A stretch of DNA of 64,000 bases, taken from an uncultured Oscillospiraceae bacterium. GTDB taxonomy: Bacteria; Bacillota; Clostridia; Oscillospirales; Oscillospiraceae. The notes under the pieces are model-generated. The model did not search any database. It saw only the letters and a list, made by a program, of their open reading frames with translations, and was not told where the DNA came from. Every line of letters begins with the position of its first letter. The stretch's first letter is position 1. Below are positions 59,355 through 62,789 of the stretch, one piece after another. The stretch is taken from contig CANQMO010000008.1 of the NCBI GenBank assembly GCA_947624985.1, forward strand, positions 35,410 to 99,409, read 5' to 3'. The translations under genes were made by a program, and so were the position numbers.

Positions 59355-60461
59355 TTATGAGAACCACCAGCCGAAAAGCGGCGACAGCGGTATCATAAAT
59401 ACCGAAAAGATCATGGAGGAGACGGAGATCAGCGTGGCCCGCTGGGCGGACGGGAATCGGTCATTCAGTTTCTCGTCGCTGATAAGCTGGAGGCTGTCGT
59501 CCAGCAGCCCCGCCAGCAGGCCGGAGGCCATCAGCACCGGCAGGCATGTCCCCTGCGCCGCCAGGGCGCAGAGCAGAACGCCGCCTCCGGTGAAGGATAC
59601 CGCCTTTGGATAGGACAGGCGGTCCAGCCTGCCCGTCAGCAGCCCTGCTAGACCGCCGCCCAGCCCCAGCGTGAACAGCGCCGGTCCCAGCAGCGCTGGG
59701 ACCGTCACCGCCGCCTCTACCTTCTCCTGCAGGTAAAATCCCGTCAGCGTCGCGCATGCCCCTACCAGGGAGTTGAGCACCATGATCCGGACAGCCGCGC
59801 CATCCGATCTAAGGAGCGTCCAGGCGCCCCGGACCGTCTCCGCCAGGGCGGCGGGCAGCGTCCGCAGCGTTATCGCAGGGGCGTCCCGCTCCGGTTCAGT
59901 GACGGTCAGCGCAGCCGCCAGACCGATGAGTTCGATCCCCGCGTCCAGCAGGTACGCCCGCCGCCAGCCCAGGAGCACCGTGGCCCCTGCCAGCAGCATG
60001 GCGCCGCCGTCGCTGAACCGGTATACCCCGTTTTGTAGGGAGGAGAATTTCAGATAGTCCGCCTCCTGTCCCGCTTGCAGCATGGATTCATAGGTAACGG
60101 CCTCCCGCGTGCCGGACTCCAGGTTGTACCCCAGGGCGGAAACAGCCAGAGACAGACATACCCCGGCCATCCCTTGGGAGACTGCCATCAGCAGGGCAGA
60201 GAGCACAAACATCACATGGCTGGCCGTCAGGGTCCATTTTCGCCCCAGCACGTCCGCCAGAAGTCCGGAAGGCAGTTCACAGCACAGGCTCATGACATGG
60301 AACACCGTTTCCGCCAGGCCGATCTCCACCAGGGAGAACCCGCGCAGCGCCAGCAGCAGGACCCACACGCTTCCCGCCGGACGGAAGCCTACCGACCATT
60401 CCAGGATCAGAAGGGCCAGTTTTTGTCTGGAAATAGAAAACTGTTTTTTTGTTTTGGGCAT
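59355..60461 (-). CDS. MFS transporter (drug-efflux-like)
   Basis: 12-TM pattern; ELPSGLLADVLGRKWTL motif-A-like; start chosen at ATG 60461 (alternative ATG 60491 or GTG 60518). Confidence 0.85.
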   Translation of the reverse strand: MPKTKKQFSISRQKLALLILEWSVGFRPAGSVWVLLLALRGFSLVEIGLAETVFHVMSLCCELPSGLLADVLGRKWTLTASHVMFVLSALLMAVSQGMAGVCLSLAVSALGYNLESGTREAVTYESMLQAGQEADYLKFSSLQNGVYRFSDGGAMLLAGATVLLGWRRAYLLDAGIELIGLAAALTVTEPERDAPAITLRTLPAALAETVRGAWTLLRSDGAAVRIMVLNSLVGACATLTGFYLQEKVEAAVTVPALLGPALFTLGLGGGLAGLLTGRLDRLSYPKAVSFTGGGVLLCALAAQGTCLPVLMASGLLAGLLDDSLQLISDEKLNDRFPSAQRATLISVSSMIFSVFMIPLSPLFGWWFS

Positions 60462-60508
60462 AAAAATAGCGCCATCCTTTCTTTTTGTCATAAGAAAAGG
60501 ACCGGCGC
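60462..60508 (-). terminator. terminator-like attenuator hairpin abutting MFS start codon
   Basis: Minus strand GCGCC-GG-TCCTTTTCTT-loop-AAGAAAGGA-T-GGCGC-TATTTTT-ATG. Confidence 0.6.
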
Positions 60509-60539
60509 GACCAATCACTGTGACACGCAGTCACCGAAA

Positions 60540-60626
60540 AAAGGGCGCACTGATCCTGTGGATGGCCATATCATATCTGAGAAAATGCAGACCCACGCCG
60601 CTGTGCACCCGCCGCATCCCTGCGCC
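60540..60626 (-). CDS. 28-aa candidate regulatory leader peptide upstream of MFS
   Basis: AAAGGAGGG-N7-ATG; MRRVHSGVGLHFLRYDMAIHRISAPFFR*. Confidence 0.55.
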
Positions 60627-60648
60627 CTCCTTTCATTAGGATGAGGCA

Positions 60649-60678
60649 AGTATAACATGAGTGGATATGGGATTTCAA
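60649..60678 (-). promoter_or_regulatory. promoter of MFS leader
   Basis: Minus strand TTGAAA-N18-TATACT with extended TGn upstream of the -10. Confidence 0.6.
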
Positions 60679-60774
60679 GAGGATATTTATCCTGCGCTTT
60701 TTGGGTCAATAACACCGGCGGCGCTATTATACCCCGGTAAACTTAGGCGCAGCGCGGCGTTGTTTCCGCGCTTT

Positions 60775-61995
60775 TTACCGATCCGCAAAGGAACATTTCT
60801 CCCGGGGCAGTTCTTCCGGCAGGGCGGCGCCCATATAGCGGATGGAGCGGGTCCCGTACTTTTCCCGGATGGCGTCCACGGCGGCGTCAATGCGCCGCTG
60901 GCCGTCCAGCCGGCGGTGATCGGTGAACATATCCATCTGCTCCGGAGCGTCGGCGGAGGCGAGAGCCCCGGCCCGCAGGCCAAGGCCCCGCAGGGGCGCG
61001 GGCCAGGCGTGCAGCTGCCGGAAAAGGTCCATGGCCAGCCGGTACAGCTCCCGGGTCCCGTCCGCTGGGCGGCGGAGAAGGGTCTGGCGGCTGGCCCAGC
61101 CCAGCGAGGCCGCGTCCCGGACGGAGACCTCCAGCAGCCCCGCCCGGTACCGTCCCTGCCGGAGCCGGCCGCCCACCTCCTCCGCCAGCGCCAGCATGAC
61201 AGCGCGCACGTCCGCCTCGCAGAGCAGGTCCCGGGGCGGGGTGGTGGAGTTGCCAATGCTTTTCGGCGGAGACGGGCGGTCGAACCGGCGGACGGGACTG
61301 TCGTCCCAGCCATTGGCGTACCGGTAGAGGGTGAGACCGCTCTTGCCCATCCGGAGCCGGAGCGCCTCCGGGTCCGCCGCGGCAAGCTGGCCGATGGTGC
61401 GGATGCCCATGGCCCCCAGCGTCCGGGTGGAGGCGGGCCCGGCGAACAGCAGATCGCTCACCGGCAGCGGCCACACGGCCTGGCGGAAATTGTCCCGATC
61501 GAACACCGTCACCGCGTCGGGCTTGCGGTAGTCGGAGCCCAGCTTGGCGAAGGGCTTGTTCCAACTGACCCCTACGCTGACCGTGACGCCCAGATCCCGC
61601 CGTATCCGCCGGCGTATCTCCTGTGCGGCCAGATACCCGTCCCGGTAGGCATGGCAGCCGGTGAGGTCCAGCCAGCTCTCGTCCAGACCGAAGGGCTCCT
61701 GCCGGTCCGTGAACTCGCTGTATATGGCCCGGGCGGCGTGGGAGACCTTCTCATACTTGTCGTAGTGGGGCCGCAGGACGATGAGCTCCGGGCAAAGCTG
61801 CCGGGCCTGCCACAGGACCATGCCGGTCTTAACGCCGCAGCGCTTGGCCTGGTCGCTCTTGGCCAGGATGATGCCGTGACGGGCCGTCTCGTCCCCGCCT
61901 ACCGCCACCGGCAGTCCCCGCAGCTCCGGCCTGTCCAGAAGCTCGATGCTCACATAGCAGGCGTTGATATCCGAATGCAATATCACTCTCTCCAT
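60775..61995 (-). CDS. Y-family DNA polymerase
   Basis: VILHSDINACYVSIELL...PFGLDESWLDLTGCHAYRDG...SVGVSWNKPFAKLGSDYRKPD. Confidence 0.93.
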   Translation of the reverse strand: MERVILHSDINACYVSIELLDRPELRGLPVAVGGDETARHGIILAKSDQAKRCGVKTGMVLWQARQLCPELIVLRPHYDKYEKVSHAARAIYSEFTDRQEPFGLDESWLDLTGCHAYRDGYLAAQEIRRRIRRDLGVTVSVGVSWNKPFAKLGSDYRKPDAVTVFDRDNFRQAVWPLPVSDLLFAGPASTRTLGAMGIRTIGQLAAADPEALRLRMGKSGLTLYRYANGWDDSPVRRFDRPSPPKSIGNSTTPPRDLLCEADVRAVMLALAEEVGGRLRQGRYRAGLLEVSVRDAASLGWASRQTLLRRPADGTRELYRLAMDLFRQLHAWPAPLRGLGLRAGALASADAPEQMDMFTDHRRLDGQRRIDAAVDAIREKYGTRSIRYMGAALPEELPREKCSFADR

Positions 61996-62060: not shown

Positions 62061-62089
62061 TTGCAAAGCGTCTCTCCATGCTATATACT
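62061..62089 (+). promoter_or_regulatory. promoter of XRE-S24 repressor gene
   Basis: TTGCAA-N17-TATACT. Confidence 0.65.
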
Positions 62090-62114
62090 GTTTTTCAAAG
62101 GGGGGCGAAGTGCT

Positions 62115-62789
62115 GTGTTTGACGATATCGGGGCGAAGCTGGCGGCGCTGCGGCGGCAGGCGGGGCTGAGCCAGAAGCAGCTGGCCCAAAAGCTGACGGC
62201 GCTGGGGGAGCCTGTCACGGACAAGGCGCTCTCCAAATGGGAGAAGGGGGCCACGCTCCCGTCAGCCCGTCAGTTTTTGCTGGTGTGCCGGGCGCTGGAG
62301 GTGGAGGACCTTTCCGGGGAGTTCATGGGCGCGGGCCTTGCCCGGGGACTGGACGCGGCGGGGCGGCGGAAGCTGAACGAGTACGCGGAGCTTCTGCGGC
62401 GCAGCGGCCTGTATGAGCCCAGGCCGGAGGGTGGTCGGGCCATCCGGCTGTACACCCTGGCGGCCAGCGCGGGTCCCGGCCAGTTTCTGGACGACGGGGA
62501 TTTCCGCTGGATAGACGCCGCCAGCGCGCCCAGACAGGCGGACTTTGCCGTGCGGGTAGCGGGGGACAGCATGGAGCCCCGGTACCGGGACGGGCAGGTG
62601 GTGTATGTGAAGGCGTCGCCCACGGTGGCGGACGGGGAGATAGGGCTGTTTTTCTGGCAGGGAAGCGGCTATATCAAGCAGATGTATGACCGGCCCGGGG
62701 GCGTGCGGCTGCACAGCCTGAACCCGGCCTATGAGGATATCGCGATATCGGAGCCGGCCCAACTGCGGGTTTTCGGCCGGGTCCTGTGA
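62115..62789 (+). CDS. XRE-family HTH regulator with LexA/S24-like C-terminal domain (GTG start)
   Basis: HTH LAALRRQAGLSQKQLAQKLTALGEPVTDKALSKWEKGATLPS; AGDSMEPRYRDGQVVYVK; GSGYIKQMY; ASAG possible cleavage site. Confidence 0.88.
   Translation: MFDDIGAKLAALRRQAGLSQKQLAQKLTALGEPVTDKALSKWEKGATLPSARQFLLVCRALEVEDLSGEFMGAGLARGLDAAGRRKLNEYAELLRRSGLYEPRPEGGRAIRLYTLAASAGPGQFLDDGDFRWIDAASAPRQADFAVRVAGDSMEPRYRDGQVVYVKASPTVADGEIGLFFWQGSGYIKQMYDRPGGVRLHSLNPAYEDIAISEPAQLRVFGRVL

Follow-up and report, generated by a model that had tools for sequence, protein, structure and literature searches.

A probable ribosome-mediated attenuator with a conserved leader peptide ahead of an MFS exporter family in Clostridia

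The window analyzed here, a stretch of 64,000 nucleotides from an uncultured Oscillospiraceae bacterium, carries on its minus strand an MFS exporter gene preceded by a promoter, a short ORF, and a terminator-like stem. This arrangement raises the question of whether translation of the short ORF decides if the exporter is made. The earlier note had proposed ribosome-mediated attenuation for the locus, and this interpretation was strongly supported by a selected, translated leader, by covarying alternative helices, and by an exporter Shine–Dalgarno (SD) sequence lying within the terminator. The promoter, the leader SD, the 28-codon ORF, the hairpins, and the U-run were all found on the minus strand where that note had placed them (Table 1). 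In a promoter scan, the window promoter matched 10 of 12 consensus positions, with a TG ahead of the −10 box, and relatives have a promoter at the equivalent place. The leader SD, AAAGGAGGG, precedes the leader ATG at 60617.

Table 1. Features of the leader and exporter locus in the window. A, B, C, and D are the pairing segments discussed in the text.
Feature	Positions	Strand	Basis
Promoter: −35 TTGAAA (60678-60673), N18 spacer, extended −10 TATACT (60654-60649)	60649-60678	(-)	read directly
Segment A, AAAGGAGGGCGCA: leader SD region, partner of B	60621-60633	(-)	
Leader ORF, MRRVHSGVGLHFLRYDMAIHRISAPFFR*: 28 codons and TGA	60531-60617	(-)	
Leader codon 3: Arg (CGG) in the window, Trp in 95/101 relatives	60609-60611	(-)	
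Leader codon 14, 28 nt before the B anchor: Arg (AGA) in the window, Gly in 91/101 relatives	60576-60578	(-)	
Segment B, AGGATCAGTGCGCCCTTTTTT: last leader codons, partner of A or C	60537-60557	(-)	
GTGAC-N5-GTCAC hairpin spanning the leader stop codon	60520-60534	(-)	read directly
Terminator-like stem (C:D), followed by TATTTTT and the MFS ATG	60469-60508	(-)	
Segment C, GCGCCGGTCCTTTTCTT: terminator 5' arm, partner of B	60492-60508	(-)	
Segment D, AAGAAAGGATGGCGC: terminator 3' arm, holds the MFS SD AAAGGA	60469-60483	(-)	
U-run TATTTTT between the terminator stem and the MFS start codon	60462-60468	(-)	
MFS exporter, 368 aa (P0001), ATG at 60461	59355-60461	(-)	Pfam MFS_1

The terminator-like stem described in the earlier note proved more stable than expected by chance (−19.1 kcal/mol, z −3.4), only 1 of 200 shuffled sequences being equally stable, and the layout was kept at about 100 homologous loci. 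Folding of the whole leader gave a z of −2.0 against shuffles. The C:D stem was not among the matches of a consensus terminator scan of the window. Two other elements singled out at first did not belong to the core. The GTGAC-N5-GTCAC hairpin is indeed present, but its stability did not exceed chance (z −1.0, 29/200 shuffles) and it was restricted to close relatives, and it was therefore set aside. A pairing of GCCATCC in the leader with GGATGGC in the 3' arm of the terminator was also abandoned: it was broken or weakened in five loci of the close family (L005, L031, L033, L040, and L041), and distant members lack the GGATGGC arm.

The element was found at about 100 homologous loci, in gut-type genomes of several families of Clostridia, and in a single copy in the 2.28-Mb draft genome to which the window belongs. 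A first profile (R1), built from 18 sequences, retrieved eight true new loci among 391 genomes of the class and nothing beyond the window's own locus among 200 genomes of the phylum. A second profile (R2), built from 20 sequences, matched in 67 of 115 genomes of family f67, in about 14 of 200 genomes of f52 (E near 1e-6 or better), and in 7 of 149 genomes of f26 (E 2e-8 or better). An exact-pattern search at the order level found 3 of 394 genomes, the pattern being too strict, and the same pattern had no match in viral contigs. The close relatives are labeled as uncultured Oscillospiraceae, as other Clostridia or Lachnospiraceae MAGs, and as isolates named Lapin.

The same MFS family was located downstream of every intact element with enough flanking sequence, and also in 20 of 20 weaker matches fetched as a check. 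No other type of gene was found under this leader among the loci retrieved. Five loci that had appeared to carry other genes (L061-L065) were false hits, and two others (L096 and L099) turned out to have kept the leader and the terminator while the MFS gene was deleted or broken. A transposase-like ORF lies near L096 (a locus also listed as L055), and in L099 the leader is followed by a gene for an unrelated protein of the membrane-fusion type. A search with the MFS protein added 12 further genomes in the family sample, and among species genomes it returned 34 loci. Of the 13 exporter-carrying genomes of family f1, 12 had the leader, the exception being the genome of L008. On plasmids and phages, we found only distant MFS proteins, or 50% identity in two unannotated records of a fecal phage collection.

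The promoter, leader, and MFS gene form a unit of about 1.4 kb (window 59355-60690; L002 and L015-L046) whose flanks are unrelated between relatives: the leader was shared in 378 of 378 pairs, the upstream flank in 2 of 378, and the downstream flank in 2 of 276. The unit seems to be a mobile single-gene cassette; at its ends, no transposase was detected in the window or in these relatives. One MAG (CANQCS01) carries the cassette twice, on separate contigs (L016 and L023). In the window, the cassette is next to a gene encoding a Y-family DNA polymerase (60775-61995, minus strand), from which a gene for an HTH/S24 LexA-like repressor (62061-62789, plus strand) is divergently transcribed, the two forming an SOS-type mutagenesis pair. 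Three distant loci (L007, L009, and L010) have an extra GC-rich terminator-like hairpin, CCGCGGCG..CGCCGCGG, and a T-run between the leader and the exporter gene, with a second GCGCCC copy after this hairpin in two of them.

The exporter of the window matched Pfam MFS_1 with an E-value of 2.5e-13, and its structure model (pLDDT 91.6) had NorA, SLC19A3, and MdfA among the best solved folds. Among 25 family members, similarity to NCBIfam models below their cut-offs (E up to 1e-3) was detected for HP1165 in 25, for TetA(P) in 13, and for Tet(40) in 8, but the window protein matched neither the TetA(P) nor the Tet(40) model at E 1e-3. As the NCBIfam cut-off score was not reached, we did not assign the exporter to the tetA(P)/tet(40) family. 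It is predicted to be a drug-type efflux pump, and a response of its expression to a drug is plausible.

The earlier interpretation depended on conservation of the leader ORF, which was evident: the ORF, with a strong SD ahead of it, was kept at the roughly 100 loci under frame-specific purifying selection. In-frame pN/pS ratios were 0.32 in f67, 0.52 in the close family, 0.60 in f52, and 0.70 in the distant set, as against 0.98-1.93 off-frame overall and 1.2-1.9 off-frame in the best-sampled family (f67). Judged from these sequence comparisons, selection acts on the leader peptide itself. Two positions stand out among the 101 distinct leader copies, a Trp at codon 3 (95 copies) and a Gly exactly 28 nt before segment B (91 copies, of both length classes). 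Within the 64-nt class (69 distinct leaders), Trp3 was found in all 69 and Gly13 in 68, with N7, I8, L10, and T5 frequent, but this class was partly collected by a search preferring TGG at codon 3, and the figures for all 101 copies are therefore fairer. The leader has 27 or 28 codons and the change in length is in-frame; since the distance from Gly to B is constant in both classes, the extra upstream codon leaves the position of Gly relative to B unchanged. The leader of the window has Arg at both signature positions, as does that of L028, and thus the inducibility of the window copy may be changed or lost.

The end of the leader behaves differently. In four loci (L012, L072, L092, and L103) the ORF stops as early as codons 16-19, ahead of B, so the peptide can do without its C-terminal residues. 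In another clade, SLPVC has replaced the C-terminal SAPFF, and the RNA partner has changed with it. Taken together, these observations suggest selection on about the first 13 residues as a peptide and on the remaining part as RNA.

We then considered the RNA itself, for which three mutually exclusive helices, A:B, B:C, and C:D, are supported by comparative data; covariation and folding across homologues had been proposed as a check in the earlier note. Pairing of AAAGGAGGGCGCA with TGCGCCCTTTTTT (A:B), noticed at the outset, is real and was the preferred pairing of the free RNA in folding. The antiterminator B:C, formed between AGGATC..GCGC at the leader end and GCGC..GGTCCT in the terminator 5' arm, had been overlooked. 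Its duplex energy was −19.5 kcal/mol with own partners and −16.1 kcal/mol with swapped partners, a difference reached in 0 of 10,000 permutations. Control leader segments gave −8 to −14 kcal/mol and yet permutation z values of −2 to −4.7, which arise from base composition, so that z alone overstates B:C and counts on a tree are the stronger argument. On the MFS tree (a FastTree search, with B:C pairs taken from predicted duplexes), the minimum number of changes from one Watson–Crick pair to another was 7, 4, 8, 11, 3, and 3 at B positions −7, −4, −3, −2, −1, and 0, corresponding to 7-11 independent swaps at each of three positions. For A:B, duplex energies were −16.1 (own) and −14.5 kcal/mol (swapped; 0/5000 permutations), with controls flat and near zero. 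Covariation of A:B did not exceed shuffles on the first alignment (A1), and support arose only with the wider set, in which compensated changes were found in L150 (GGGCACAG:CTGTGCCC), L135 (AGGCAGA:TCTGCCT), L149, and L124; A:B was weak in L102, L103, L072, and L092. As for C:D, the claim that the exporter SD is embedded in the terminator stem held well beyond the window, the SD being paired within C:D in 97% of 67 loci, whose exporter start sites had been chosen by a pattern calling for an SD-like motif and a T-run.

The effect of ribosome position was explored in silico by folding these 67 loci with modeled ribosome footprints blocked, and the window copy folded like the others. C:D formed in 94% of the loci when no ribosome was present. 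With a ribosome at codon 1 or 3, B:C formed in 97-98% of the loci when C had just been transcribed. A ribosome at codon 24 or at the stop codon left B:C in only 0-2% and C:D in 94-95%. A single ribosome at codon 13 with A free gave a mixed outcome, the finished RNA showing A:B in 83% and B:C in 11%, whereas a leading ribosome at codon 13 together with a second at the start gave B:C in 100%. A stall at codon 13 would thus require a second ribosome over A, which a stall at codons 1-3 would not.

We conclude that the element is probably a ribosome-mediated attenuator that turns on the MFS exporter when ribosomes stall early in the leader ORF. The sequence analysis shows a translated leader under selection, conservation of A:B, covariation of B:C, the SD in D, and the association with a single MFS family; the stalling and its site, an antibiotic as inducer, and transcription termination beyond the masking of the SD are inferred. 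On a leader without ribosomes, A:B and C:D would form, transcription would stop, and the exporter SD in D would be hidden. During normal translation, the ribosome would reach the leader end and cover B, leaving C:D to form again. A ribosome-targeting compound would instead hold a ribosome early in the leader, at its start or, with a following ribosome loading on A, close to the conserved Gly; A would be masked and B left free to pair with C before D is made. Once B:C had formed, there would be no terminator, D would be free, and the exporter would be made.

Both candidate stall sites, the first codons and the conserved Gly with a queued ribosome, fit the data. A ribosome usually covers about 17 nt downstream of the start of its P-site codon, and one with the conserved Gly codon in its P site would end just before B. 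The fixed distance between Gly and B would favor the Gly site with a queued ribosome. A more speculative and rather doubtful extension is that Trp3, N7, L10, and the Gly located 28 nt ahead of the switch make the leader's first half an arrest peptide of a new type. It would be tuned to a class of gut compounds that are common there and sensed by no known leader, and would park the stalled ribosome exactly where the antiterminator begins, leaving A to be masked by the ribosome that follows.

The closest rival is a purely translational attenuator, in which the exporter SD is masked by C:D and released by B:C, transcription itself not being terminated. Many erm leaders work in this way (PMC4335068), and the SD within D at nearly all loci agrees with it. 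However, a U-run follows the stem directly, between the SD and the AUG, as an intrinsic terminator needs, even if its frequency is partly built in by the pattern used to choose exporter start sites, which required an SD-like motif and a T-run of at least three T; the stem is also unusually stable for its composition (z −3.4). We therefore regard this alternative as unlikely. Sensing of tryptophan shortage by the single conserved Trp3 codon, with exposure of B, appears considerably less likely still. The prevalence of Trp3 and the 98% of 67 loci that form B:C with a ribosome at codon 3 are in line with it, but there is one codon rather than the tandem codons usual in such leaders, N7, I8, L10, and Gly are conserved too, an exporter is an odd target for starvation, and the window copy has no Trp. 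That the ORF encodes a small protein with a function of its own, the RNA structure being a by-product, would explain selection on the peptide, but hardly the covariation of the RNA, the four ORFs ending before B, or the C-terminal part following its RNA partner from SAPFF to SLPVC, and is highly improbable. Equally improbable is a ligand-binding riboswitch or an RNA bound by a protein, in which the ORF is a passenger. The alternative terminator and antiterminator helices speak for it, but conservation between A and B is codon-phased, and neither the window region nor 11 diverse loci gave a relevant Rfam match.

A ribosome-mediated attenuator of this layout was compared with known systems. In the mef(E)/mel (msr(D)) system of streptococci, the leader is the 8-residue MTASMRLR within a 327-nt 5' region (PMC4335068). 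There, a macrolide-induced leader peptide, a terminator, and an anti-attenuator likewise precede an MFS efflux gene, whereas here the peptide has 27-28 residues of the MxWxTxNIxLxxG type, the A/B/C/D layout is compact, and the leader SD is itself strand A; an MRLR-type arrest peptide occurred in none of the leaders of the element that were examined. The ermC, ermB, ermD, and ermK leaders are alike in that drug-dependent stalling opens an alternative RNA structure, erm(K) acting at transcription (PMC4335068), but no MRLR, IFVI, or similar arrest motif is present here, and an exporter takes the place of the rRNA methylase as the regulated gene product. The tet(M), tet(S), and tet(O) genes also have a short ORF and a terminator ahead of a resistance gene; in tet(M) and tet(O), however, this ORF reads MRQGILK, and R2 found nothing in three loci of the tet(M/S/O) type (best E 0.52, filters off). 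The MRQGILK ORF is identical in the tet(M) and tet(O) loci (L154 354-377 and L156 353-376) and lies upstream of the position at which the tet(M) record annotates the tet leader peptide. For tetA(P) and tet(40), the likeness consists of the weak exporter profile similarity below cut-off; when their upstream regions (L158-L161) were searched with R2 together with the window, only the window's element matched, and tet(40) directly follows tet(O/32/O). Finally, trp-type operons have the same 1:2, 2:3, 3:4 helix logic, with the ribosome as a switch and the off state both without translation and with full translation. They differ in that strand 1 here is the leader SD, the exporter SD also lies in the terminator, and no tandem codons for one amino acid were found in the leader sequences examined. 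Rfam T-box, riboswitch, and leader families gave no relevant match in the regions searched, and we found no report of this leader in the open-licence literature. The element works like attenuators of a known kind, but none of the families tested includes it.

Most known attenuators of this kind belong to a small number of resistance genes in Firmicutes pathogens and in Bacillus. The element described here occurs in 67 of the 115 genomes of one Clostridia family and sporadically in other families, accompanies a single, uncharacterised exporter family, and has a strongly conserved leader peptide for which no known counterpart was found here. Owing to the covariation, each helix is directly testable by mutations that break and restore it. 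If the element responds to a drug or a gut metabolite, this response would name the likely substrate class of the exporter, and the element would provide a ready-made sensor and a new arrest peptide.
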